Positions 16,213-43,862 of a stretch of DNA of 64,000 bases are shown here, piece by piece. A model generated the notes under the pieces. The model worked only from the letters and a program-made list of their open reading frames with translations. It ran no database searches and had not been told where the DNA came from. How positions within the stretch are numbered: position 1 is the first letter of the stretch; every line of letters starts with the position of its first letter. A program made the translations under genes and the position numbers. This DNA is from Archangium violaceum (GTDB lineage Bacteria > Myxococcota > Myxococcia > Myxococcales > Myxococcaceae): assembly GCF_016859125.1 (NCBI RefSeq), contig NZ_CP069338.1, forward strand, positions 11,969,501 through 12,033,500. The letters are read 5' to 3'.

Positions 16213-17142
16213 TCACCCGGGGGTGATCAACTTCTGGCGGGCCGTTTCCCGGCGCTTCGCGCGCACCTTGCCCGCCACATTGAGCAGCAATCGATCCCGC
16301 TCCCAGCGTTCACACGTGGGTGCATCCACCCGCTCCCAGAGAGTTCCCAGACCGTCCACCCTCGCGCGGAACAGATCGAGCGCCCCAGACAGGGCCAGGT
16401 GCACCGCGGGTGAAGCCGGCTCCGACTGCGCGAGTCCTCGCATCGTCACCGCGAGTGCGAGCAATTCCTCTCGTACCTCGTCCGGCCAGCCCGAGCGCCG
16501 GGCCACCTGGATCAGCCACCCGAGCACCGCCGCGAACACGTGACAGTCTTCCACCGTGCGGAACGGTTTGACGTAGCGCTCGTAGCCATCGCCGGGCAGC
16601 ACTTCCGCGGGCGCCACCTCCACCTCGTGCAGCCGCAGCTCCGCATGAGGTACCTCCGGGACGAACGGAGTCGGCGGCAACTCGGTGAGCGTCACCCCCG
16701 GACGGCGTGAGTCGATCCGCACCAGCCGCAGCCGGTTGCGTCCCTGGACGTCCTGCCCCTCGCTCGCCACCACCAGCAGCTCGTCCGCCGCGGTGCCCAG
16801 GGTGATGAAGGCCTTGGTGCCCTCGAGGCGCAGTGGGCCATCGCCCGCGCCGGTGAGCCGGGTGTCCATCGCCGAGGGGTGTCCTCCCCGCGCCTCGGTC
16901 ACGCACAGCGCGTACCGGCGCTCAAAAGGCAGCGCGGGGAACAGGGAGCGCAGGGCCGAGTGGTAGCCCGAGGCGAAGGCGTAACCCAGCCGGTCGGCCG
17001 CGAAGCCTCCGGCGAACGCCACGTCCACCGGGAGGGAGAAGCGCGAGGCCAGCCGCAGGTGCTGCGTCCACCAGTCCTCGATGGAGCCGAGGGACACCGG
17101 AGCGGGGGACTCGGTGAGGAGGAATCGCAGCAGCTCGTCCAT
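16213..17142 (-). CDS. Acyl-CoA dehydrogenase-like protein, short form
   Basis: A protein of 309 aa related to acyl-CoA dehydrogenases but shorter than the usual ~380. The flavin-binding beta domain is visible (YALCVTEARGGHPSAMDTRL, then LRLEGTKAFITLGTAADELL). The later helical part is less conserved (CHVFAAVLGWLIQVARR), and I cannot identify the catalytic glutamate. It may be a divergent or non-catalytic member. It has a good internal reading frame with no sign of damage. It lies 30 bases downstream of exonuclease III on the same strand. Confidence 0.7.
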   Translation of the reverse strand: MDELLRFLLTESPAPVSLGSIEDWWTQHLRLASRFSLPVDVAFAGGFAADRLGYAFASGYHSALRSLFPALPFERRYALCVTEARGGHPSAMDTRLTGAGDGPLRLEGTKAFITLGTAADELLVVASEGQDVQGRNRLRLVRIDSRRPGVTLTELPPTPFVPEVPHAELRLHEVEVAPAEVLPGDGYERYVKPFRTVEDCHVFAAVLGWLIQVARRSGWPDEVREELLALAVTMRGLAQSEPASPAVHLALSGALDLFRARVDGLGTLWERVDAPTCERWERDRLLLNVAGKVRAKRRETARQKLITPG

Positions 17143-17172
17143 GGCGGGGGCACCTCCGTCTACGACAGTGAC

Positions 17173-17943
17173 TCAGTCCTTGAACTCGGCCCACACCGGT
17201 GCGTGATCCGAGGGCTGCTTGCCCTTGCGCGCCTCGCGGTCCACGTCCGCCGCCACCAGCCGCTCCGCCAGCGGCGCCGTCGCGAAGATGTGGTCGATGC
17301 GCAGTCCCTGGTTCTTCGGGAACGCCAGCATCCGGTAGTCCCACCAACTGAAGCGCTGCTCGTTCGGGTGCAGCTTGCGGAACGTGTCCGTCAGCCCGAA
17401 CGCGCACAGCTCCTTCAGCGCCTCCCGCTCCTTCGCCGTGCAGAGCGTCTGCCCTTCCCACAGCGCCACGTCCCACACGTCGATGTCCTCGGGCGCCACG
17501 TTCCAGTCGCCACACAGCACCAGCGGCTCACCCGGCTTGTGCCGCGTGTCCAGGTAGCGCCTCAGCCGCCCGTACCACTGCAGCTTGTACTTGTATTGAT
17601 CCGAGTCCACCGCCTGCCCGTTCGGCGCGTACACGCTCAGCACCCGCACCCCGTTCACCGTCGCGGCGATCACCCGCGCGTGCGTGTCGTCCACCCCGTC
17701 CGACAGGCCTCGCACCACGTCCGTGGGCTCCGTCTTCGCCAGGATGGCCACCCCGTTGTACGTCTTCTGCCCGTGCACCGCGGCGTGGTAGCCCGCCGCT
17801 CGCACGGCCTCCATCGGAAACTCGGTGTCCTGGCACTTCAGCTCCTGCAGGCACACCACGTCCGGTTGAGCGCTCTTCAGCCAGTCCACCAGCCTGTCCA
17901 GGCGGGCTCGGACCGAGTTCACGTTCCAGGCAGCGATCTTCAT
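17173..17943 (-). CDS. xth: Exodeoxyribonuclease III
   Basis: DNA repair nuclease of 256 aa that cuts at abasic sites and has 3'-5' exonuclease activity. All catalytic motifs of the ExoIII/AP-endonuclease family are present: WNVNSVRAR at the start, QELK (Glu34), YAPNG, GDWNVAPEDIDV (Asp146, Asn148) and the C-terminal SDHAPVW (Asp246, His247). The length matches the family. ATG 17943 (MKIAAWNVNS) is the conserved start, and an ATG 9 bases earlier is possible. Confidence 0.96.
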   Translation of the reverse strand: MKIAAWNVNSVRARLDRLVDWLKSAQPDVVCLQELKCQDTEFPMEAVRAAGYHAAVHGQKTYNGVAILAKTEPTDVVRGLSDGVDDTHARVIAATVNGVRVLSVYAPNGQAVDSDQYKYKLQWYGRLRRYLDTRHKPGEPLVLCGDWNVAPEDIDVWDVALWEGQTLCTAKEREALKELCAFGLTDTFRKLHPNEQRFSWWDYRMLAFPKNQGLRIDHIFATAPLAERLVAADVDREARKGKQPSDHAPVWAEFKD

Positions 17944-18160
17944 CCCGCCCAACGTCGCACGTCACCTCCTCCCCCGCCACGGTTTTTCCCCTCCTCCTCG
18001 GGCGTATTCCCTTGTGGGTCCTGGTCTCCGTACGTCTTTCCGTGACCTTGGCCGTGGCACGGTGGCCCTTGGGGTTTCCGGATAGCTCGGGTGTGGCCCT
18101 CGGGCCGCACGGAGCCCGCCCGGGGAGCGGGGAGGCGTCCTCGTAGACCCTCACCCCCCG

Positions 18161-18181
18161 CCCTCTCCCAGAGGGAGAGGG
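18161..18181. repeat. 21-bp palindromic intergenic repeat, copy 1
   Basis: Perfect inverted repeat with 9-bp arms CCCTCTCCC and GGGAGAGGG around AGA. The same 21 bases recur exactly at 51204-51224. It lies about 50 bases before the TPR lipoprotein gene, in an otherwise featureless 286-base gap. It looks like a dispersed REP-like hairpin. Confidence 0.7.
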
Positions 18182-18184
18182 GGC

Positions 18185-18199
18185 TGGCACGCGCATCGC
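18185..18199 (+). promoter_or_regulatory. Possible sigma-54 promoter
   Basis: TGGCAC (18185-18190), five bases, then TCGC (18196-18199) is one mismatch from the -24/-12 consensus TGGCAC-N5-TTGC. It lies about 30 bases upstream of the TPR gene start. No enhancer-binding site was recognised. Confidence 0.3.
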
Positions 18200-18229
18200 A
18201 GTGGGCTCCTCCCGACAAGGAGCCACACC

Positions 18230-19222
18230 ATGAGGAACACCATCCTGTCCGCCTGCCTCGCCGCCCTCTCCCTCGCTGCCTGCGATGCCGGCCAGCTCCG
18301 GCGGCCCCGCGCGCTCCTCCCCTCCTCCCCGACCCGGCTCGAGAACCGGGTGCTCCCCTCCTCCGAGCCCACTCCCGTCACCCCCGTGGCGCTCCTCCCC
18401 GAGGGGGGTGAGGGTCTCCCCGAGACCGCCGAGGACCTCGCCCCCGCCGGGCCCGTGGACACGCTCTCGCTCCCCCATGAGGAGCACCTCTTCCCCGTGG
18501 ACCACCTCGCTCGCGCTCGCTCGCTGCGCGACGAGGGTGACCTCTCCGGTGCCCTCACCGAGGCCCGCCGCGCCGTCCATGACGCCGCGGAGGATGTCGA
18601 TGCAGCCGAGAAGGCCCTCGACACCCTCATCCACCTGGCCCTCCGCTCCGGGAACAAGCAGCTCGCCGCCGATGCGCATGGGGAGCTCGCCGTCCTCTTC
18701 CCGGATGGCCCCGAGCCCTTCGTCCAGCGGGCCCGCCTCCTCCTGGAGCTCGGCGACCTCGAGGGCGCCTTCCGCTCCGCCGAGGCCGCGCTCGAGCTCG
18801 ACCCCGAGTATCCCGAGATCTACCAGGTGCTCGGCCGCGCCCACCTCTCCGCTGGCCAGCTCGACGAGGCCATCATCCGGTTCAAACAGGCCGTGCACCT
18901 CGACCCGTACCATGGGTATGCCCTCAACAACCTCGGGCTCGCCTACCTGCGGTCCGGCCAGGATGCGCTCGCCGCCGAGGCCCTCGCCCAGGCCGCCTAC
19001 CTGCTTCCCCATGTGGGCTTCGTCCACAACAACCTGGGGCTCGCCTACGAGCGGATTGGCCGTTACGAGGAGGCCCGCATGGCCTTCGACACCGCCACGC
19101 GCCTCTCACCCGGGGACAGCAAGGCCCGCCTCAACCTCGGCCGGCTGAATCGCGAGGCCCGTGCCTCCGTCGATGTGCGGGCACTCCTGGGAGACAAGCG
19201 CTCCCCGGGGTGCCCGGAATAG
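18230..19222 (+). CDS. TPR-repeat lipoprotein
   Basis: A protein of 330 aa. The signal peptide ends LAALSLAAC (Cys18), so it is a lipoprotein. After a Pro-rich linker, about six tetratricopeptide repeats fill residues 90-320. Clear ones include YQVLGRAHLSAGQLDEAIIR and GYALNNLGLAYLRSGQDAL, then NNLGLAYERIGRYEEARMAF. TPR lipoproteins act as scaffolds for envelope complexes; a partner cannot be named. AAGGAG lies 7 bases before the ATG. The PBP1A operon follows 105 bases downstream on the same strand. Confidence 0.88.
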   Translation: MRNTILSACLAALSLAACDAGQLRRPRALLPSSPTRLENRVLPSSEPTPVTPVALLPEGGEGLPETAEDLAPAGPVDTLSLPHEEHLFPVDHLARARSLRDEGDLSGALTEARRAVHDAAEDVDAAEKALDTLIHLALRSGNKQLAADAHGELAVLFPDGPEPFVQRARLLLELGDLEGAFRSAEAALELDPEYPEIYQVLGRAHLSAGQLDEAIIRFKQAVHLDPYHGYALNNLGLAYLRSGQDALAAEALAQAAYLLPHVGFVHNNLGLAYERIGRYEEARMAFDTATRLSPGDSKARLNLGRLNREARASVDVRALLGDKRSPGCPE

Positions 19223-19327
19223 CCGGTGCTCGTCAGCCGTCTCGCGAGCCACCCGGCCACCAGCCCCATTCCGGTTCCCCGCCCGGCGGTTTAACGTCCG
19301 CCCACCTTTTCGTTGTCACCGCGCCCC

Positions 19328-21943
19328 ATGAACCCGGCCCGCGAGATGAGCTCCCAGCCCCAATCCCCGACTCCCGCCACTCCTCCGGCGCCCCCGGTTC
19401 CTCCGGCGCCCCCGGCCCGTCCCGGCCTGGGTGCCCTCCTGTGGCACTGGACGAAGCGGCTCCTCGTCCTCGCCGCCGTGGGACTGGTGCTGCTCGTGCT
19501 CACCGTCACGGGCGCCTACTTCTACTTCAGCCGCGGCCTGCCCTCGCCCGAGGCCCTGCGCAACTACACCCTGCCCCAGGTCACCAAGGTGCGCTGCGCC
19601 GACGGCTCCGTGTGCGCCGAGTTCTTCATGCCCCAGGGGCGCCGCACCGTGGTGGACATCCAGGAGCTGCCACCCCACGTGCGCAACGCCTTCCTCGGCG
19701 CCGAGGACGCGGATTTCTACAAGCACGAGGGCCTCGACTTCTTCGGCATCACCCGCGCCGCCGTGAAGAACCTCATCCCCGGCAGCCGCAAGTCCGGTGC
19801 CTCCACGCTCACGCAGCAGGTGGTGAAGAACATGCTGCTGTCGCCCGAGCGCAGCCTCTCGCGCAAGATTCGCGAGTGGATCCTCACCCCGCGCGTGGAG
19901 CAGACGCTCACCAAGGATCAGATCCTCAGCCTCTACATCAACCAGGTCTATTACGGGCAGGGGCGCAGCGGCATCGAGGAGGCCGCCCTCTACTACTTCG
20001 GCAAGCACGCCAAGGACCTGAGCCTCGGCGAGGCCGCGGTGCTCGCGGGCACGGTGCAGTCGCCCAACCGCATCAACCCGGAGAAGAACATCGTCAAGGC
20101 CAAGCAGCGCCAGGGCTATGTGTTGGAGCAGATGGCGCAGCACGGCTTCGCGCCCAGGGCGCAGGTGGACAAGGAGAAGGAGAAGCCCATCGTGCTCGCC
20201 CCCCGGCCGCCCCCCGAAGTGGGCCCCTACTACGCCGAGGAGATGCGCCGCACGCTCGTCGCCCGCTATGGCGAGCAGGCCGTGCTCACCGGGGGCCTGC
20301 GCGTGGACATCGCCATGGACCCGAAGCTCCAGGCCATCGCCGACGAGGCGGTGCGCAAGGGGCTGGAGGCCGTGGACCGTCGGCAGGGCTACCGCGGCGC
20401 GCTGGGCACGCTGGAGGCCGCGCGCTTCGAGCGCCTCAAGCCCCTCATCGCCCGGCAGATCGAAGAGGCCGGCCGGCGTCAGAAGGAAGGCGCGTACGTG
20501 GCCGACCTCGCCTCGCTCGCGCAGACGGGCGCGCCGCAGCCCAACCCCGTCGAGGAGCCGGTGGTGACCACCGACGCCGAGCAGGAGGAGGACGAGAAGC
20601 TCTCCGCCGACGAGAAGCTCGCGCAGGATGTGCAGCTCGCGCCCCTCAAGGAGGGCCTGCGCGTGGCCGGCTTCGTCACCCAGGTGGATGACCCGGGCAA
20701 GAAGGCCCGCGTGGACCTGGTGGGCCGCACCGCGGAGATTCCCTTCTCCTCCGTCACCTGGGCACGCATGAAGGGCAAGAGCGCGCCCTCGAAGATGTCG
20801 GACGTGATGAAGCCCGGGGACATCGTGCTCGTGCGCATCACTCGCGTCACGCCCGCCCCCGCGCTGCTCGAGGCCACGCTGGACCAGGTGCCACTCGTGC
20901 AGGGCGGCCTCGTCGTCATCAACCCCCAGAACCGCCACGTGGTGGCCATGGTGGGCGGCTATGACTTCAAGGTCTCGCCCTTCAACCGCGCCACGCAGGC
21001 CCGGCGCCAGCCCGGCTCGTCCTTCAAGCCCTTCCTGTATGGCGCCGCGCTCGGCAGCGGGCGCTACACCACCATCAGCACGGTGAACGACGCCCCCGAG
21101 GCCATCCGCGATCCGTACACCGGCAAGGCGTGGAAGCCGCAGAACTACGACCGCACCTTCGAGGGCCCCATGACGCTGCGCGAGGCCCTCACCAAGTCCA
21201 AGAACACCGTGTCCGTGCGCCTCATCGAGGCCATCACCCCCGCCACCGCCATCGACTTCGCCCGCCGCGCCGGCATCCGCTCGCCGCTGCCGGAGAACCT
21301 CACCCTGGCGCTGGGCACCGGTGAGGTGTCCATCCTGGAGGCCGCCAACGCCTACGCCACGCTGCAGGCCAACGGCCGCTACGCCGAGCCGCTGACGCTG
21401 CTGAAGGTGGCGGACGCGCAGGGCAAGGTGCTCGAGGAGCACCAGCCGGCCTTCGAGGAGACGCTGCCCCCGGCGGTGGCCTACCTCACCACGTCGCTGA
21501 TGCGCAGCGTGGTGGAGGAGGGCACGGCCCGCGCCGTGACGGAGCTCAACCGCCCCGCCGCCGGCAAGACGGGCACCGCCAGCGAGAACCGCGACGCCTG
21601 GTTCTCCGGCTTCACCGCGGACTGGGTCGCCAGCGCGTGGGTGGGTTTCGACGACCACTCGCCCCTGGGCAGCTCCGAGACGGGTGGCCGCGCGCCCCTC
21701 CCCATCTGGCTGGAGTTCATGCGCGCCGCCCACCAGGGTCTGCCCGCGCGCGAGTTCGAGGTGCCCCCCGGCGTGGTGCAGGTGCGCATCGACCCCGCCA
21801 CCGGACTGCTCGCGGGCAACGCCGTGCCCGGCCGGCTCGAGTCCTTCCTCGACGGCACCCAGCCCACCGCCGAGGCGCCCCCGCCCGGCCACGTCACCCC
21901 GAGCGACTTCTTCCTCCAGGAAGGTAGCCGGGGGGGTCTGTGA
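19328..21943 (+). CDS. Penicillin-binding protein 1A (bifunctional peptidoglycan synthase)
   Basis: An 871-aa class A PBP. It has a short Pro-rich cytoplasmic tail, one membrane anchor (about 44-66) and a GT51 glycosyltransferase domain with EDADFYKHEG (Glu126). There is an OB-like insert (about 420-520, rich in charged residues). The transpeptidase has SSFK (Ser564, Lys567), SKN and KTGT (Lys747). It polymerises and cross-links lipid II outside the inner membrane. ATG 19328 is the first ATG and lacks a good ribosome site; ATG 19346 is an alternative. The stop overlaps the next gene by GTGA. It heads four overlapping genes ending in a histidine kinase, an unusual setting for a PBP. Confidence 0.94.
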   Translation: MNPAREMSSQPQSPTPATPPAPPVPPAPPARPGLGALLWHWTKRLLVLAAVGLVLLVLTVTGAYFYFSRGLPSPEALRNYTLPQVTKVRCADGSVCAEFFMPQGRRTVVDIQELPPHVRNAFLGAEDADFYKHEGLDFFGITRAAVKNLIPGSRKSGASTLTQQVVKNMLLSPERSLSRKIREWILTPRVEQTLTKDQILSLYINQVYYGQGRSGIEEAALYYFGKHAKDLSLGEAAVLAGTVQSPNRINPEKNIVKAKQRQGYVLEQMAQHGFAPRAQVDKEKEKPIVLAPRPPPEVGPYYAEEMRRTLVARYGEQAVLTGGLRVDIAMDPKLQAIADEAVRKGLEAVDRRQGYRGALGTLEAARFERLKPLIARQIEEAGRRQKEGAYVADLASLAQTGAPQPNPVEEPVVTTDAEQEEDEKLSADEKLAQDVQLAPLKEGLRVAGFVTQVDDPGKKARVDLVGRTAEIPFSSVTWARMKGKSAPSKMSDVMKPGDIVLVRITRVTPAPALLEATLDQVPLVQGGLVVINPQNRHVVAMVGGYDFKVSPFNRATQARRQPGSSFKPFLYGAALGSGRYTTISTVNDAPEAIRDPYTGKAWKPQNYDRTFEGPMTLREALTKSKNTVSVRLIEAITPATAIDFARRAGIRSPLPENLTLALGTGEVSILEAANAYATLQANGRYAEPLTLLKVADAQGKVLEEHQPAFEETLPPAVAYLTTSLMRSVVEEGTARAVTELNRPAAGKTGTASENRDAWFSGFTADWVASAWVGFDDHSPLGSSETGGRAPLPIWLEFMRAAHQGLPAREFEVPPGVVQVRIDPATGLLAGNAVPGRLESFLDGTQPTAEAPPPGHVTPSDFFLQEGSRGGL

Positions 21944-23328
21944 GCCGAGCCCTCGCCGCCGCGCTCCTCCTGGCCGCGCACCCCTCTCCGGCCGCGAAGC
22001 CCACGCAGCGGCCTCCCGCCCCGGCCGCGCGGCCCGCCCAGGAGGCCGCGGTCACTCCGGCCCTCGAGCGGCTCGCCCAGGCCGTGGCCTCGGATGTCCG
22101 CGAGGTGAAGCCCGAGCCCCCCGTGGCCCTGTACCTCTCCGGGGGAGCCCCTGAGTTGCGGCGCGCCTTCGGGACGTTGCTCGCCTCGCGCCTCGCCTCC
22201 GCCGGGCTCGCCCCCGTGGTGCTGGAGGCCCCCTCCCCCGAGGCCGCCGAGTCGCTCGCCCGCGAGCAGGGCACCCGCGCCCTGCTGCGGCTCACCCTCG
22301 GCGTGGAGGCCGGTGAGCTGCGCGCGCATGGCGACCTGTTCGGCACCTGGGTGAACTTCTGGTCCGGCCGCACCGCCACCCGCGCGCCGTCTCCCGCCGC
22401 CGCCATCGCCCAGTCCGTGGAGGCGGATGCCGCGGTGCTCGCGCTCGCCGCCGTGGAGCCTCCGCGCACGCCCGCCACCCCTTCCGAGGAGCCGCTTCCC
22501 CTGCTCCTGCTGGGCGCCGTGCTGGCACATCTGCCCTCCCCGCCCGCCGCGCTCGCCGCGGGGGACCTCGATGGGGACGGCAAGGACGAGGTGGTCGCGC
22601 TCACCGAGCGGGCCGTCCACGTCTTCGCCGCGGATGGGCAGCTCGTCGCCGAGCGCTCGCTGGAGGCGCTGCCCCCCAGCTCCGCTCCCACCCGCGAGCC
22701 CTTCGGCGCACTGGCCATCCTCTCCGGGCCACCACGCATCGCCGCCTTCTCCACCCGCTTCGCCCACGGCGAGGTGCTCTCCCTGGAGGGAGGCGCGCTG
22801 CGAGGCGTGTCCCGGCTCGAGTCCGCGCCCCTGGCCCCGGACGCGCGCGGCGCCTTCGTGCCGGGCCAGACGGCCTTCGCTCCCGAGGTGCGGCTCGGCA
22901 ACGGCGAGCAGCGCCTGGCGGGTGTGCAGTCCCGCTTCACCACCTTCAGCTCCGCCAACGCTCGCCTCCTCCTCGTCCACCCGGATGGCTCGGCCTCCTT
23001 CTTCTCCCGGCCCTCGGTGGCCCCCCTGCCGCTCTCCGGCCTCGGCGCCGGCAGCGCGCTCGGGGACCTGGACGGGGATGGGACGCCGGAGCTGCTCACC
23101 ACCTCGCCTGAAATCCAACCGTCGCCGGACGTGCTGCGCGTCTTCAAGACGAACGGTGGCGATCCCACCCTCCACGAGCCTCTCTGGCAGGGGCCCCTTC
23201 CCGCTGGCCGCGCCCTCCAGGTGGTGACGGCCAACCTGGACGGGGACAAACGCCGCGAGGTGGTGGTGGGCCTCTCACAACCGGATGGTACCGGCGTGCT
23301 CTTCCTCCTGCGCCAGGGTGCGCCATGA
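21940..23328 (+). CDS. Exported FG-GAP/VCBS-repeat protein of unknown function
   Basis: A protein of 462 aa from a GTG start that overlaps the PBP1A stop. The N-terminus is signal-peptide-like (ALAAALLLAAHPSPAA). The first ~190 residues are Ala/Pro-rich. The rest holds beta-propeller-type repeats with Asp-rich calcium loops: GDLDGDGKDEVVAL, GDLDGDGTPELLTT and NLDGDKRREVVVG. Such repeats usually mediate protein or ligand binding outside the cytoplasm. No enzymatic motif is seen. Its 4-base overlaps with PBP1A before it and the solute-binding protein after it argue that the products work together. I do not recognise a named family. Confidence 0.8.
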   Translation: MSRALAAALLLAAHPSPAAKPTQRPPAPAARPAQEAAVTPALERLAQAVASDVREVKPEPPVALYLSGGAPELRRAFGTLLASRLASAGLAPVVLEAPSPEAAESLAREQGTRALLRLTLGVEAGELRAHGDLFGTWVNFWSGRTATRAPSPAAAIAQSVEADAAVLALAAVEPPRTPATPSEEPLPLLLLGAVLAHLPSPPAALAAGDLDGDGKDEVVALTERAVHVFAADGQLVAERSLEALPPSSAPTREPFGALAILSGPPRIAAFSTRFAHGEVLSLEGGALRGVSRLESAPLAPDARGAFVPGQTAFAPEVRLGNGEQRLAGVQSRFTTFSSANARLLLVHPDGSASFFSRPSVAPLPLSGLGAGSALGDLDGDGTPELLTTSPEIQPSPDVLRVFKTNGGDPTLHEPLWQGPLPAGRALQVVTANLDGDKRREVVVGLSQPDGTGVLFLLRQGAP

Positions 23329-24698
23329 CGCTCCGCCACGCCCTCGTCAGCCTCCTCCTGCTCGGCGCCATGCCGTCGCTCGCCGCCGGCCGCGTCCCCT
23401 ACGGAGGCGAGCTGCGCGTCGCCCACACCGGCCCCGCCGAGCCTGGAGAGCCGGCCCTCGCCGACTCCCCCACCGAGGCCACCGTGCTCGGGCTCCTCTC
23501 GCGGCCCCCCTGTCACCTGACCCCGGACGGGCACCTCGCGCCCGCGCTCGCACGGGAGCTGTCGCGCCCCTCCGCGCAGGTGGTGCGCCTGAGCCTGCCC
23601 TCTCCCGCGCAGGCCACCGCGCTCGTCCGCGCCTGGGCCCGGCTCACCGGCTCCGAGGCGCCCTCGCCCTACCGCGCCCTGCTCTTCCCGCTGCGCGGCG
23701 AGGGCCGGCAGCTCTCCGCCACCGGCGACACGCTGGAGCTCGCGCTCGCCTTCCCGTGGCCGGACCTGGAGCGAGCCCTGTGCCACCCGGCGCTCGCCCC
23801 GCCACGCTCCGTGCCCGCCGCGCTCGGCCCGTTCTCCGCCGCTGGCACCCACACCGTGGAAGCACGGCTCGCCTGGAGCCAGGGCCGGCCGTACGTGGAC
23901 AGAGTGCGCCTGATGCCCACCGACGAGCGCGGCCTCTCGCGCCTGTGGTCGACGCAGGAGGCCCAGGTGGCGCTCGGCGTCCTCTCCGACTCGGGAACCG
24001 TTTCGGGCACGGCGCTATACGCCACCTACCTGGCCTGGTCACCGAGGCGCGTGCCTCCGGACTTCCGGCGAGCGGTGGAGAGCGCCATCGATCGCGAGGA
24101 CCTCACGCGCCTCTTCGTGCGAGGACCGGCCGTGCCCATGCCGCACCTGCTGCCGCCCGCGCACCTCTCCCAGTCCGCGGGCCCACGCCCCTCGCCGCCG
24201 CCCGCCCAGGCCGGGCGCAAGGTGACGCTGCTCTACGACGCGAGCAGCGAGGACCAGCGCGCGGTGGCCGAGCGCCTCCAGGTGAGGCTGCACGATCGAG
24301 GCTACGCCGTGGCCCTGGAGCGCCTGCCGCGCGCCGAGCTGCGCGCCCGCTGGGCGAAGGGCGACTACGAGCTGATGCTCCACTCGCTGCTGCTGCCGCC
24401 CGTGCCCGGCCCGGCCCTGGCCGTGGTGCTGGACGCCGCGGGCCGGAAGGATCTGCTCGGGGTGGAGCTGCCGCGCATCGGCGCCCTGCCGGACGCGGCG
24501 GCGCGCGACACGAGGGCTCGTGAGCGGGCCCTGGCACTCGCCCCGTCCGTGCCGCTTCTGCCGCTATATGCGCAGGGGCTGGCACTGCGCGCGGCACCGG
24601 AGGTGGGAGGGCTCGTGTTCGACGCCCAGGGGCTGCCCATGCTGGACGGCGCCTGGCTGCACCCCACCGTGCCGGGTGTCCCGGGAGCGCGGAGATGA
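23325..24698 (+). CDS. Family-5 (peptide-type) solute-binding protein without a transporter
   Basis: A protein of 457 aa with a signal peptide (LLLLGAMPSLAAG). It resembles extracellular solute-binding protein family 5 (oligopeptide/nickel type): YGGELRVAHTG near the start, a domain boundary around VPPDFRRAVESAIDREDLTR, and a C-terminal lobe ending FDAQGLPMLDGAW. The residues that grip ligands are not obvious, and parts are degenerate. No permease or ATPase gene is nearby. It overlaps the FG-GAP gene and the histidine kinase gene by ATGA, which suggests it hands a ligand to the kinase or PBP rather than to an importer (inference). Confidence 0.78.
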   Translation: MTLRHALVSLLLLGAMPSLAAGRVPYGGELRVAHTGPAEPGEPALADSPTEATVLGLLSRPPCHLTPDGHLAPALARELSRPSAQVVRLSLPSPAQATALVRAWARLTGSEAPSPYRALLFPLRGEGRQLSATGDTLELALAFPWPDLERALCHPALAPPRSVPAALGPFSAAGTHTVEARLAWSQGRPYVDRVRLMPTDERGLSRLWSTQEAQVALGVLSDSGTVSGTALYATYLAWSPRRVPPDFRRAVESAIDREDLTRLFVRGPAVPMPHLLPPAHLSQSAGPRPSPPPAQAGRKVTLLYDASSEDQRAVAERLQVRLHDRGYAVALERLPRAELRARWAKGDYELMLHSLLLPPVPGPALAVVLDAAGRKDLLGVELPRIGALPDAAARDTRARERALALAPSVPLLPLYAQGLALRAAPEVGGLVFDAQGLPMLDGAWLHPTVPGVPGARR

Positions 24699-26344
24699 GG
24701 TTGAGGACGCGGCTGGCGCTCGCCTTCGCCCTGCTGGCGCTGGTGCCGCTGACGGTGATGGTGCCCTTCACCCTGACGCAGCTGCGCGCCACGCTGTCGC
24801 GAGGGCTGGACGCGCGCATGGACGGGGCCACCGCCTCCGCGCAGGAGGCCCTCGAGCGAGCCGCCGCCAACGCACGCCGGGCGGTGGAGGAGTTGGTGGA
24901 GAGCTCCGCCATGGAGGACCTGGCGCGCGAGGCCCGCGAGTCCCCCGCCCGAGCCATCCGCGCCGACACCGCCCAGCCGCTGATGAAGAGCCGGGGTCTC
25001 ACGGTGCTGTCCCTGTTCGACCGGAAGGGCACCACGCTGTCCTCGGGGCACCTGCCCGCGCGCCGGGGAGATCCGGACCCGGTGCTCTTCGCGGTGACGC
25101 GGGAGAAGTCCTCCAAGCCCGTACCGGTGAAGGTGTCGGTCCGAGGAGACCAGGGCCTGCGCGAGGTGCCCGCGCTCGTCACCGCGAGACCGGTGGACTA
25201 CGGGGACTCGCGGCTGTGGGTGGTGGGAGGGGTGCTGCTGGACCAGGGGCTGGCGGCGCACCTGTCGCGGCTCACGGGGGCGGAGGTGTCCCTGCTGTCC
25301 GGGGACACGGAGGTGGCGAGGGCGGGAAGCGTCACGGCGCCCACGGTGGCGCGAGTGCTGCCACTGGGCGAGGTCGCCACGGTGCGGCTCGTCTTCAGCC
25401 GCGCGGCCGAGCGGGAGGCCACGGTGGGCGTGTTCCGCTCCTTCCTGCTGCTGGCCGGGTTGGGGCTGAGCTTCGCGGTGCTGCTGGGGCTGCTGATGGC
25501 CCGGCGGATCACCCAGCCAGTGGAGGCGCTCACCTCGGGCGCGAGACGGGTGGGAGAGGGCGCGCTGGACGTGCAGGTGCAGGTGAAGGCCACGGGCGAG
25601 GTGGGCGAGCTGGTGAAGACGTTCAACCACATGACGACGGAGCTGCGCTCCACCACCGAGCGGCTGGTGGCCAGCGAGCGGGTCGCCGCGTGGCAGGAGG
25701 TGGCGAGGCGGCTGGCGCATGAGATCAAGAATCCGCTGACGCCCATCCGCATGTCGCTGGAGACGCTGATGGCGGTGCAGGACGCGCAGGACGCGCGCTT
25801 CCCCGCGCTCTTCCGGGACAGCGCGGGCGTCATCCTGGAAGAGGTGGATCGGCTGCGGCGGATCGTCGACGAGTTCAGCCGCTTCGCGCGCCTGCCCAAG
25901 CCGCAGCTGGAGCCGGTGGACCTGGGGGAGCTCGCGCAGAACGTGCTGTCGCTCTACGCCACACCGCCGGAGGGCATCCACATCCACTCAGAGATACAGC
26001 CCGGGGTGGTGGCGAAGGCGGACCGGGACCAGCTCACGCAGGTGCTGGTGAACCTGGTGAAGAACGCCGAGGAGGCGATGGCGAAGGGAGGCGGGGACCT
26101 GCGCGTGCGCGTGCGAGGCGACGAGCGGGAGGCGGTGGTGGAGGTGCAGGACAGCGGCCCGGGGATTCCACCCGAGCACCGGGCACGCATCTTCGAGCCC
26201 TACTTCACGACGAAGGACGGCGGCACGGGCCTGGGACTGGCGATTGCGGCGCGCATCCTCCAGGAGCACGGCGGCAAGCTGGACGTGGGCGGCGAGCCTG
26301 GCCAGGGCGCCTGCTTCACCCTCTCCCTGCCGCGCGAGCACTGA
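24695..26344 (+). CDS. NtrY-like sensor histidine kinase
   Basis: A membrane kinase of 549 aa. TM1 is near 7-27. A periplasmic sensor domain of about 215 residues follows, then TM2 (about 248-269) and a HAMP segment (RRITQPVEALTSGARRVGEG). The HisKA box is RRLAHEIKNPLTPIR (His342). The HATPase has NLVKNAEEAM, DSGPGIPPEH, FTTKDGGTGLGLAIA. It would sense an envelope signal and phosphorylate a response regulator. No regulator gene is adjacent; the next genes run on the other strand in the accessory island. It starts by ATGA overlap with the solute-binding gene. Confidence 0.93.
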   Translation: MRLRTRLALAFALLALVPLTVMVPFTLTQLRATLSRGLDARMDGATASAQEALERAAANARRAVEELVESSAMEDLAREARESPARAIRADTAQPLMKSRGLTVLSLFDRKGTTLSSGHLPARRGDPDPVLFAVTREKSSKPVPVKVSVRGDQGLREVPALVTARPVDYGDSRLWVVGGVLLDQGLAAHLSRLTGAEVSLLSGDTEVARAGSVTAPTVARVLPLGEVATVRLVFSRAAEREATVGVFRSFLLLAGLGLSFAVLLGLLMARRITQPVEALTSGARRVGEGALDVQVQVKATGEVGELVKTFNHMTTELRSTTERLVASERVAAWQEVARRLAHEIKNPLTPIRMSLETLMAVQDAQDARFPALFRDSAGVILEEVDRLRRIVDEFSRFARLPKPQLEPVDLGELAQNVLSLYATPPEGIHIHSEIQPGVVAKADRDQLTQVLVNLVKNAEEAMAKGGGDLRVRVRGDEREAVVEVQDSGPGIPPEHRARIFEPYFTTKDGGTGLGLAIAARILQEHGGKLDVGGEPGQGACFTLSLPREH

Positions 26345-26361
26345 CGGAAATCAGGTTCGAA

Positions 26362-27267
26362 TCACTCTCGACTACCGGACCGCAAGTCTGGCACACACGT
26401 CCATGGCTCTTCGGGACGGCGCTTGCAGGTGAAGCCAGATCCGCAGGCCGAGGAATCCTCGGGAGTACAGGACCTACGACAGCTGTGGAAGTAACAGACG
26501 GTCCCATCGGGGCAGGAGCGATCCGCAAGGGAGCCGCAGGGTTGCAGGCACTGCATCCACACCTCGTCCACACGTTGTGGATAGTCGTCGACCGAGCAGA
26601 ATTGTCCCTGAGGACAGGGAGTTTGCTGACAGTTCGGACCGTGAACCCTGGCGCAAATGGAAATGCGCTCTCCACGGTAGACGCACTGTTGGCCCGCAGG
26701 GCAGGAGCGACCTTCACAAGTGGGCTGGCAGGTGGGCCCCTCTGGGGCCTCTTCACAAAAGTAGCCATTGGGGCAGTCCGCGGGCTCGAGCGGGTTGCAC
26801 GGCCGGCCACACCGGCCCCGGCAGAGCAGGTCCTTCCGACAGCCATCCGATGGCTCGCGAGGCAGTGGTTCGCATACCTCCCCCTCACCGCGCACTCCCA
26901 CCAGCGAGCAGGCACGAAGAAGATCCTCTCCACTCTGAGTGTCCATGATGCGGCAGGCAAACCCCTCAGGGCATTGCCGGTCCGTCATGCACATGCTGTC
27001 CGTGCAGTAGCTACGAACGGTACGCATGTTGAAGAAGCAGCGCAGTTGCGGATCGCAATCGGCATCCGAGTCGCAGTCCCGCTCATACGTGGGCAAACCC
27101 AAGCGCTCCTCGAGCGTGAGCATGGGAAGGATGCGCGGGCTTTGAGCTTGCAACAGAGATGAACGCTCCTCACCCGTGTGCCCAAGAAGGGAGGTGTGCA
27201 GCAACCACGCCAGCGGTAGCGGAAGAGAGAGGCCGAACAGGACGGTCAGGAGCGTTCGCCACTTCAT
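26362..27267 (-). CDS. Cysteine-rich secreted or membrane-anchored protein
   Basis: A protein of 301 aa with an N-terminal hydrophobic segment (LLTVLFGLSLPLPLAWLLH). The rest is dominated by repeated Cys motifs: DCDSDADCDPQLRC, CMTDRQCPEGFAC, ADCPNGYFC, RSCPAGQQC, TPCPQGQFC, RSCPDGTVC, SSACGSGFTC. The regular CPxGxxC spacing suggests a chain of small disulfide-bonded modules exposed outside the cell. No enzyme motif is seen. The ribosome site is weak. It lies 14 bases after the small lipoprotein gene on the same strand. The function is unknown. Confidence 0.75.
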   Translation of the reverse strand: MKWRTLLTVLFGLSLPLPLAWLLHTSLLGHTGEERSSLLQAQSPRILPMLTLEERLGLPTYERDCDSDADCDPQLRCFFNMRTVRSYCTDSMCMTDRQCPEGFACRIMDTQSGEDLLRACSLVGVRGEGEVCEPLPREPSDGCRKDLLCRGRCGRPCNPLEPADCPNGYFCEEAPEGPTCQPTCEGRSCPAGQQCVYRGERISICARVHGPNCQQTPCPQGQFCSVDDYPQRVDEVWMQCLQPCGSLADRSCPDGTVCYFHSCRRSCTPEDSSACGSGFTCKRRPEEPWTCVPDLRSGSRE

Positions 27268-27281
27268 GCTGTGCCCGCGCC

Positions 27282-27521
27282 TCAATCGACCTCGGGGGGA
27301 GAGCGACACTCCTTCGGGCACTTGGGTGAGGTCTCTTTAGGACCCCGGTTGTCACAAATCTCCAGCCATCGGCTTTCAGACATGTGGCAGGTCCGATTCG
27401 CCTGATACTGCGTCATGTCCCTACGTACGGCCATCTCGATGGTACCTCCTCGACCCCATGCATGCGGACAACCCGTTTCCACGGCGAGCACCAACAACAG
27501 CGTCAGCAGTCTCTTTGGCAT
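27282..27521 (-). CDS. Small cysteine-containing lipoprotein-like protein
   Basis: A protein of 79 aa from ATG 27521. A hydrophobic leader (LLTLLLVLAVETGC) ends at a Cys that could be lipidated. The mature part has four more Cys (CHM, ICDN, KCPKEC) and no recognised domain. An in-frame ATG at 27599 would hide the leader and is less likely. It ends 14 bases before the Cys-rich gene, with which it probably shares a transcript. I do not recognise it. Confidence 0.55.
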   Translation of the reverse strand: MPKRLLTLLLVLAVETGCPHAWGRGGTIEMAVRRDMTQYQANRTCHMSESRWLEICDNRGPKETSPKCPKECRSPPEVD

Positions 27522-30779: not shown

Positions 30780-30804
30780 GGAACATTTATTTTTCCGAGC
30801 CTCC
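30780..30804. repeat. IS right terminal inverted repeat
   Basis: Perfect partner of 29484-29508. Its first codons on the minus strand (GGA GGC TCG GAA AAA TAA) supply a new ending, GGSEK-stop, to the interrupted HNH gene. Confidence 0.93.
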
Positions 30805-31698
30805 AAAGTCTTCGTACCCCATGCCACTCAATCTGGGATGCAGGCTGACTTGGAGCGTCTCCGGATTGATCCCAAGCAGGTCCAAGTCAAAGAGCGTGTG
30901 GATGTCCGCACGGAGCAGTAGCCCATTCGAGGGATGGTTGTCCTTCTCTCCCCGATAGGGAGAAATGTGAGCCGCTTCGAGCAGGTCAGGAAGCCTGCAC
31001 CGGGTCACCAAGCAGGTGTCACCGAAACGCTCACGAAGCTCCTGACGGAATAGCCCCTGTCCTCGGCGCTCGCGGATCTGACGTGCGATGCGCCTCCTTT
31101 CATCCCTCTCATCAAGAACATACGGCTCTTCTGACGAATCCTCTGCCATGAGACCAAGGCCCAGGATTGCCTCGGGCAACGCTTCCGCCAAGCGAAGCAA
31201 GAGCTTCGCTGGCCCCTCTTCCAAATGCTCCAATTCCACCTTCTGCATGGAAAGCTGCGGGTTGTAATTCGGACAAGCCCGGCGAACCGCCTGTACGGGG
31301 ATGTGCCCAGGAACTCTTTGGAAAACCCCATCATAATGAGCCTCGTACTTGACGATCGGCATCTCATCCGGCACTGGCTCATCGAACTCATGGCCATCCC
31401 TGCACCTGAACGACGGGCGCTTCTTTTTGCGCTCCTTTATGGTCGCGATCCTGCATTCTGGACAACGCCTCAACTTCTTGAGTTCCTCCGAGGAAGAAAT
31501 CCTGGAGATCCTGGCGATGCCCAAGACGGCCTTTCGGTCGCAGAGGATCAGCAGATCCCCCTTCGCCACTTGTAGGTGGTTCGGAACATAGTCGTCGTAG
31601 CGATAGACCGTGTCCAACTCATCGTCATATCCCACGTTCCCTGCGTACTCGCGCTCTGCCCCCAGAGAGAGCGCCAACCAGGCACGTCGTGTCTCCAT
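30787..31698 (-). CDS. HNH endonuclease, C-terminus replaced by IS sequence
   Basis: A protein of 303 aa from ATG 31698. The first ~70 residues resemble a PUA/EVE-like reader (PNHLQVAKGDLLILCDRKAV). A zinc ribbon follows (CPEC, then CRDGHEF). The HNH domain near 240-280 is LLEAAHISPYRGEKDNHPSN, GLLLRADIHTLFDLDLLGI. The coding frame ends GMGYEDF, after which GGSEK-stop comes from the IS right end, so the last 30 native residues are lost. The HNH core itself is intact, and activity is uncertain. Reader plus HNH suggests a modification-dependent restriction enzyme, which is inferred, not shown. Confidence 0.85.
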   Translation of the reverse strand: METRRAWLALSLGAEREYAGNVGYDDELDTVYRYDDYVPNHLQVAKGDLLILCDRKAVLGIARISRISSSEELKKLRRCPECRIATIKERKKKRPSFRCRDGHEFDEPVPDEMPIVKYEAHYDGVFQRVPGHIPVQAVRRACPNYNPQLSMQKVELEHLEEGPAKLLLRLAEALPEAILGLGLMAEDSSEEPYVLDERDERRRIARQIRERRGQGLFRQELRERFGDTCLVTRCRLPDLLEAAHISPYRGEKDNHPSNGLLLRADIHTLFDLDLLGINPETLQVSLHPRLSGMGYEDFGGSEK

Positions 31699-43505: not shown

Positions 43506-43862
43506 ATGGGAGAGCGAATCAAGGTGCTGCTGGTCGAGGACGATGGCGACAGTCGTGAGCTCCTCGCGGAGCTACTCGAGCTCGACTTCGACGTCATCAC
43601 GGCGGCGGACGGGGTCTCGGGATTACAGGCTTTCGAGGCGGACCACCCGGATGTGGTCGTCACGGACGAGTCACTACCCGGCATGTGTGGCACGGCACTC
43701 GCACAGGAAGTGAAACACCGTCAACCCAAGGCGGGGGTCATCCTCGTTTCCGGCTACACGAACGTGGATTCCACCAGTTGTGACGTGGTGCTGCGCAAGC
43801 CCATCGATGTCGAGCGGCTGTCAGCGGCCGTGGGGAGCCTGGGGGAAGCAGCCAGGCACTGA
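43506..43862 (+). CDS. Single-domain response regulator
   Basis: A receiver-only protein of 118 aa. The acidic pair is in LLVEDDGDSRELL, the phospho-acceptor Asp in VVVTDESLPGMCG, the Ser/Thr in VILVSGYT and the Lys in LRKPIDVE. No output domain is present, so it would act by protein contact in a phosphorelay, as many myxobacterial regulators do. The partner kinase is unknown. ATG 43506 gives the correct N-terminus but has no strong ribosome site. An in-frame earlier start (43455) would add 17 unusual residues. Confidence 0.88.
   Translation: MGERIKVLLVEDDGDSRELLAELLELDFDVITAADGVSGLQAFEADHPDVVVTDESLPGMCGTALAQEVKHRQPKAGVILVSGYTNVDSTSCDVVLRKPIDVERLSAAVGSLGEAARH

Follow-up and report, generated by a model that had tools for sequence, protein, structure and literature searches.

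The closest described system to the locus reported here is the CrdS–CrdA two-component system of Myxococcus xanthus, which is already known. The sensor histidine kinase CrdS acts both as the kinase and as the phosphatase of CrdA, a sigma-54-dependent factor homologous to NtrC, and cooperates with the Che3 chemosensory system in timing aggregation and sporulation (PMC3510030). The crdA gene, Mxan_5153, encodes an NtrC-like protein (PMC8570273). The accessible parts of the CrdS report give a target, CrdA, and a developmental-timing phenotype, and name no molecular signal beyond starvation (PMC3510030). M. xanthus also possesses three class A penicillin-binding proteins (PBPs), among which only the loss of PBP1a1 slows early growth (PMC10475089). 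Here we describe a locus of Archangium violaceum located in a 64,000-nucleotide stretch (positions 11,969,501-12,033,500, hereafter the window) of the 12.68 Mb genome, which is a single contig. In this locus an apparent crdS ortholog is the last gene of an operon containing the gene of a class A PBP. We regard it as probable, at roughly 0.55, that the operon of CrdS belongs to an autoregulated CrdS–CrdA circuit that reports the state of the cell wall or envelope.

Four genes, encoding PBP1A, an FG-GAP protein, a protein resembling solute-binding proteins of family 5 (SBP5-like protein) and the kinase, lie head-to-tail on the plus strand (Table 1). An earlier note on this DNA, made from its letters, described them as overlapping by GTGA, ATGA and ATGA, and the coordinates of the open reading frames (ORFs) confirm three 4-base overlaps at 21940-21943, 23325-23328 and 24695-24698. 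Bacterial operons often contain such overlaps, which carry little weight on their own; it is the conservation of the order, rather than the overlaps, that exceeds chance. The PBP1A ORF opens at 19313, and the start of the gene was placed at 19328. The operon begins one gene earlier than first drawn and includes a tetratricopeptide repeat (TPR) lipoprotein gene, 105 bases before PBP1A, and a sigma-54-type site, which ends 29 bases 5′ of the TPR start codon. Downstream of the kinase gene, the next ORF of coding-like composition (26362-27321) is on the opposite strand, and no genes conserved across the loci were seen there by eye. In M. xanthus the operon presumably carries the tags MXAN_5181 to 5184.

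Table 1. Components of the crdS operon, numbered from the first base of the window
Feature	Positions	Strand	Basis or remark
Putative sigma-54-type (-24/-12) promoter element TGGCACGCGCATCGCA	18185-18200	+	Kept 5′ of the TPR gene
TPR lipoprotein	18230-19222	+	Pfam TPR families; N-terminal lipobox-like LAAC read by eye
PBP1A, predicted bifunctional class A peptidoglycan synthase, apparent ortholog of M. xanthus PBP1a1	19328-21943	+	TIGR02074, Transgly, Transpeptidase
FG-GAP protein: signal-peptide-like start, alpha/beta N-domain, beta-propeller	21940-23328	+	Pfam FG-GAP; AlphaFold model
SBP5-like protein, canonical motifs lost, without nearby permease	23325-24698	+	Marginal Pfam match; AlphaFold model with SBP5 fold
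Probable CrdS ortholog, bifunctional sensor histidine kinase	24695-26344	+	Identity to M. xanthus ortholog

The kinase carries HAMP, HisKA and HATPase_c domains (Pfam) and shares 76% identity with its M. xanthus ortholog (L132:10232-11968). The latter comprises 578 amino acids, which is the published length of CrdS, and matches the published protein at nine of nine residues, H371, E372, I373, K374, N375, P376, L377, I380 and N482 (PMC3510030). These are the residues mutated by Willett and Kirby (2012), who used CrdS residues 346-578 (PMC3510030). An alternative ATG in the M. xanthus crdS ORF leads to 549 amino acids, the form common to most loci. Since both the length and all nine residues agree, the identification of the kinase of the window as a CrdS ortholog is well supported. 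The seemingly missing regulator is therefore likely to be CrdA, and an unknown response regulator was rejected on the same ground.

The PBP1A protein passes the TIGR02074 profile (564.4 bits, cut-off 508.75) and holds Transgly and Transpeptidase domains (Pfam). The catalytic glutamate of M. xanthus PBP1a2 is numbered E97 (PMC10475089). The ortholog of the window PBP1A in strain AM003, in which this residue is numbered E117, has no start codon that would place it at position 97, whereas such a start, a GTG, is present in the other PBP1A. Because the E97 numbering of PBP1a2 fits the paralog only, the PBP1A of the operon appears to be the ortholog of PBP1a1.

The order of the genes was compared across 195 genomes of the phylum, whose loci are related, so that the counts are not independent of each other. 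The SBP5-like protein is matched in 114 of these genomes. A profile of its family is matched in 164, with the weaker matches mixed with ordinary SBP5s; those of about E 1e-46 and worse that had no match in the first SBP5-like search were left uncounted. From 80 of the 114 genomes 80 loci were taken. All four genes follow each other in order in 71 of them by tblastn and in 73 after the addition of profiles, which were run on five of the nine tblastn-incomplete loci, so the arrangement is not specific to one strain. Contig ends truncate six further loci, and one (L047) is without the kinase gene. Of the 71 loci that are complete by tblastn, 55 also have the TPR gene 5′ of PBP1A. A second set of 46 loci, which overlaps in part with the genomes of the first and includes M. 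xanthus AM003 (L132), has 40 loci with all four genes and six missing at least one. An available start codon, the use of which is not implied, falls exactly at the 4-base overlap in 61/72 PBP1A/FG-GAP junctions, 66/76 FG-GAP/SBP5 junctions and 24/78 SBP5/kinase junctions. The closest named relative of the SBP5-like protein is from Archangium (88% identity). In five distant genomes (family f11) the order is intact, though the SBP5-like and FG-GAP proteins share only 24-26% identity with those of the window. Judged from gene order, the four-gene module is real and ancient. The earlier note had proposed a module that joins a kinase and a family-5 binding protein to a cell-wall synthase, and this part of the proposal stands; its regulator and signalling half are the CrdS–CrdA system known before. 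A record titled Comamonas sp. KCTC 72670 (L135) also holds a myxobacterial operon, with an SBP5-like protein of 68% identity, and is probably mislabelled or contaminated.

A conserved element, TGGCAC-N5-TCGC[AT], is located 5′ of the TPR gene. A strict match lies no more than 700 bases away in 47 of 82 distinct loci; the background rate is 0.0025 per kb per strand, or about 0.002 per locus. At least 11 of the 12 scored positions are matched in 60 of the 65 loci with a TPR gene, compared with 7 of 300 random 660-base windows, which were drawn from the same loci and some of which may contain a true site. Across the 12.68 Mb genome, 13 sites match TGGCAC-N5-TCGCW (5 in a reversed control), and one of them is the site in front of the operon. 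In L039/L143, which are one contig and where no TPR gene was found, the site precedes PBP1A instead. The element reads TCGC where the sigma-54 consensus has TTGC. A sigma-54-type promoter before the operon is, from this pattern of occurrence, moderately supported, and such a site fits an NtrC-type regulator such as CrdA. Another of the 13 genome matches lies at 43688-43703 (+), TGGCACGGCACTCGCA.

The earlier note saw no response regulator beside the genes, which holds within the window. Outside it, crdA is found upstream, and in the loci that we label Anaeromyxobacter-like (family f3; L060 and L061) an NtrC-family regulator gene stands directly 5′ of PBP1A. The best relative of the f3 regulator in the genome of the window shares 64% identity and the next best 46-48%. 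Other genomes gave similar results in this search, with a small margin in G009 (55 vs 49%) and an ambiguous outcome in G017. The CrdA ortholog of the window's genome contains receiver, sigma-54 activation and Fis helix-turn-helix domains and is 87% identical to its single M. xanthus match. That the upstream NtrC-type regulator is a CrdA ortholog is well supported by these comparisons. Exactly one match per genome is present in 118 of the 195 genomes (E up to 1e-140). Both crdA and the SBP5-like gene are present in 109 genomes. In 65 of these they share a contig, and in all 65 crdA is located upstream on the same strand, at a distance of 4,062 to 142,984 bases; this linkage is well supported. 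The SBP5-like matches of G057, G180 and G185, all weak (E 1e-5 or above), were excluded from this count along with second fragments, and G001, G002 and G007 were added from the SBP5 family-profile search. In the genome of the window crdA lies 65,072 bases upstream of the operon. Since a phage-type integrase gene (PF00589; L174:9277-10497, contig G000:C1) directly follows the 3′ end of crdA, an inserted element of mobile DNA may have split crdA from the operon here. A ParA/AAA_31-like gene is found at L174:13267-14361, downstream of crdA and the integrase gene.

Divergent from crdA is an OmpA-family lipoprotein gene, taken as crdB by its position, and a second TPR lipoprotein gene adjoins crdB. 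The f3 version of this TPR lipoprotein has a TolA_bind_tri (CpoB/YbgF-like) stretch, with 31.6 bits in L060 vs the cut-off of 30.1; the score in L203 is slightly under this cut-off. In the genome of the window, a set of Che genes lies exactly between crdB and the TPR lipoprotein gene: cheW, a second CheW-like ORF (assigned without Pfam), two mcp genes for methyl-accepting chemotaxis proteins (MCPs), cheA, cheB and cheR. The same Che proteins adjoin crdB in the Myxococcaceae loci L175 and L177, and just CheW and CheB were detected between the two lipoprotein genes in L176 (tblastn). In six non-Myxococcaceae genomes with both lipoprotein genes near crdA (L179, L180, L202, L203, L204 and L181), MCP, CheW and CheR had no tblastn match, and the CheA and CheB queries matched short, receiver-sized stretches only. 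Neither lipoprotein gene is in reach in L178, and crdB alone is found in L182. Since the Che proteins stand beside crdB in Myxococcaceae and not in the six outside genomes, Che3 is probably a later addition that joined an older crdA–crdB locus within Myxococcaceae. This would be a case of a chemosensory system joining an older envelope locus.

The FG-GAP protein passes PF13517 and PF01839, and its AlphaFold model (predicted local distance difference test, pLDDT, 86.4; predicted template modelling score, pTM, 0.61) consists of an alpha/beta N-domain and a propeller. TolB, at rank 6 by Foldseek (E 1.6e-7), has the same succession of an alpha/beta N-domain and a propeller, but the superposition is poor (TMq 0.27, root-mean-square deviation (rmsd) 14.9), and hhalign against TolB_N gave a probability of 3.7%. 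A separate TolB_N protein is present in 14 of 14 genomes searched. Pfam searches of the N-domain (E up to 10) returned five families, each in one of 12 members, and no TolB_N match, and a PDB profile search returned only three matches, with E 0.57 to 1.3. The VIA list for the model contains propellers throughout, so the N-domain is barely probed by it and absences from it carry no weight. Homology of the N-domain to TolB or Lpo proteins was set aside for want of sequence-profile support, and TolB is treated here as a resemblance. LpoA, LpoB and CpoB are activators of the class A PBPs of Escherichia coli. The locus is similar to these by analogy, in that envelope accessory proteins, one of them a TPR lipoprotein, are encoded together with a class A PBP; it differs in that the FG-GAP N-domain is without a Pfam or PDB profile match.

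The SBP5-like protein only just passes PF00496 (33.3 vs 32.4 bits, profile positions 141-346 of 368). Its AlphaFold model (pLDDT 88.9, pTM 0.88) shows an intact two-lobed SBP5 fold, and both the profile match and the fold place it in solute-binding protein family 5. The top Foldseek match is MppA (E 3.4e-25); by VIA-align, many SBP5s are near-tied, with Z 24.8 to 28.9 across 50 rows. The overall fold is common to MppA, OppA and DppA, but the canonical segments are lost and no Opp-type permease is encoded nearby. The W..DY(N)EP segment of MppA-type proteins is part of the peptide site. No counterpart of the MppA segment ASWVGDYNEP was found in the profile alignment to MppA or in the family alignment, and Myxococcaceae members are also without the F.DG.P.TA.DV segment, which the f11 members keep. 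Of 30 genomes that encode the SBP5-like protein, 17, including that of the window, gave no match to PF19300, the N-domain of Opp/Dpp permeases; the 19 PF19300 matches in the other 13 all lie away from the SBP5-like gene (other contig or a distance of more than 1 Mb). The missing permease of the earlier note is thus borne out, and no dedicated ABC permease was seen paired with the protein elsewhere. The loss of motifs and the absence of permeases make it doubtful that a wall peptide, a ligand suggested in the earlier note, is sensed in the usual SBP5 way. We read the SBP5-like protein as a former binding protein that may now act as a regulator or sensor part, similar to LpqW, a mycobacterial SBP5-fold lipoprotein that regulates lipoglycan synthesis (PMC3229680). 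LpqW (PDB 2grv) also links an SBP5 fold to envelope synthesis (VIA-align rank 41, Z 25.8, rmsd 3.2, 409 residues), a likeness of fold only; it differs as a lipoprotein acting on lipoglycan synthesis from a signal-peptide protein encoded with PBP1A, and many SBP5s score equally. An ABC-type binding protein may thus have been retooled as a regulator of wall synthesis. Its residues C63 (23511-23513) and C153 (23781-23783), nearly invariant in one alignment and missing in several distant members, possibly form a disulfide. Two further SBP5 matches of the genome (L002 and L003; G000:C1:1298312-1299376 and 4291922-4292989) lie in open frames of 1127 and 1074 amino acids, far above the usual SBP5 length, and are possible fusions.

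It is also conceivable, though on balance unlikely, that the SBP5-like protein has kept a ligand-sensing role, in line with the model of the earlier note, and captures a wall fragment, a prey peptide or a nutrient peptide, docking on CrdS when loaded, as LuxP docks on LuxQ. The predicted fold is intact, its gene is directly 5′ of the kinase gene, and the Foldseek list is led by the murein-tripeptide binder MppA, though other SBP5s are nearly tied by VIA-align. The missing ASWVGDYNEP counterpart and the further motif loss in Myxococcaceae speak against this explanation, but an altered pocket could still bind something else.

In the autoregulated circuit that we favour, the TPR lipoprotein and the FG-GAP and SBP5-like proteins would attend PBP1a1. 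They may contact PBP1a1 or CrdS and would pass the presumed signal, which is the condition of wall synthesis or of the envelope, on to the input domain of CrdS. CrdS would then switch between phosphatase and kinase activity towards CrdA. Phosphorylated CrdA (CrdA~P) would activate the operon's own promoter, a feedback on the supply of the synthase, and in M. xanthus also the genes timing aggregation and sporulation. Raised MurA lowers sporulation in M. xanthus (PMC12265050), and wall synthesis therefore bears on the process timed by CrdS. With crdS closing a conserved PBP1a1 operon that starts behind a conserved sigma-54-type element, wall synthesis or the envelope becomes a concrete candidate for the signal source, and the promoter one for a direct target; both can be tested in M. 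xanthus. That a cell-wall synthase shares an operon with a development-timing kinase in this soil bacterium and in related ones suggests that the wall state helps to decide when these bacteria develop. A more far-reaching and tentative reading, which we consider less likely than not, is that of a wall-synthesis checkpoint for multicellular development. Here the transport-free SBP5 scaffold, the propeller protein and the TPR lipoprotein would form a periplasmic complex on PBP1a1; the complex would read the engagement of the synthase and gate CrdS, and CrdA~P would reset the synthase supply via the sigma-54 promoter of the operon. The module would predate fruiting bodies, and Myxococcaceae would later have gained Che3 as a second input, by its insertion between crdB and the adjoining gene of a TPR lipoprotein.

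Several observations weigh against the autoregulated circuit. The relatedness of the surveyed loci reduces the force of the counts, and L047 (genome G157), the sole real break, has the FG-GAP and SBP5-like genes and no kinase within the following 4.6 kb. In 44 of the 109 genomes crdA is not on the contig of the operon. Some of these have the two truly apart, among them G152, with no crdA within 127 kb upstream of the operon, and G006, where the distance is at least 261 kb if the orientation is the same. The strict sigma-54 site was not found at the Anaeromyxobacter-like operons, so that the promoter link appears to cover Myxococcaceae and a few others only. Near crdA, no strict site was found in the 17 loci scanned, apart from the TPR site itself in L176. 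An action of CrdA on the operon's promoter is inferred. In its accessible parts, the published work links CrdS to starvation and development and not to the wall (PMC3510030).

If the operon served shared expression only, CrdS would sense alone via its periplasmic domain, and PBP1a1 and the accessory proteins would send it no signal. CrdS does carry an input domain in the periplasm, in which an SSGHLPAR.GD-like stretch is strongly conserved, and it was published with CrdA and Che3 and, as far as the available text goes, with no accessory protein (PMC3510030). The order and tight coupling are kept at 24-26% protein identity, however, which is beyond the usual need of co-expression, and we consider this explanation improbable. 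A last, very improbable possibility is that the genes stay together as residual synteny between related genomes, with no function behind their order. Most loci are from Myxococcaceae, which have long stretches of gene order in common, but the distant f11 genomes keep the order at this low identity even though its surroundings vary (the TPR gene is absent, and crdA is either adjacent or far), and the 80 loci contain one real break; genomes with the genes scattered were not seen.

The autoregulated circuit agrees with the M. xanthus system in the probable CrdS ortholog, the upstream CrdA ortholog and the Che3 genes beside crdB. It differs in that the accessible parts of PMC3510030 contain neither membership of the kinase in a PBP1A operon nor a sigma-54 site there. 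In the part of the literature on CrdS/CrdA and M. xanthus PBP1a that was covered, no account of crdS in a PBP1A operon or of its promoter was found; the 2011 CrdS and 2003 crdA reports may mention neighbours. The earlier note's view of an undescribed system is therefore to be narrowed to the operon, as CrdS–CrdA with Che3 was known in M. xanthus.

Upstream of the operon, the tblastn-conserved ORF 16879-18045 (+) was rejected as a probable shadow of an opposite-strand gene, which corresponds to a MKIATWN-containing ORF of L132 and L177 that we take to be exonuclease III. The ORF 17528-19027 (-) likewise looks like a shadow frame. In the region 18000-27500 no sigma-70-type sites were found, and the number of terminator-like sites, two, equals that in shuffled sequence. 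The product of 26362-27321 (-) is cysteine-rich and has a tblastn relative in just one of the 80 SBP5-like loci (L078). Further downstream, 30787-31698 (-) encodes an HNH_2 domain protein (PF13391, 4.8e-13).

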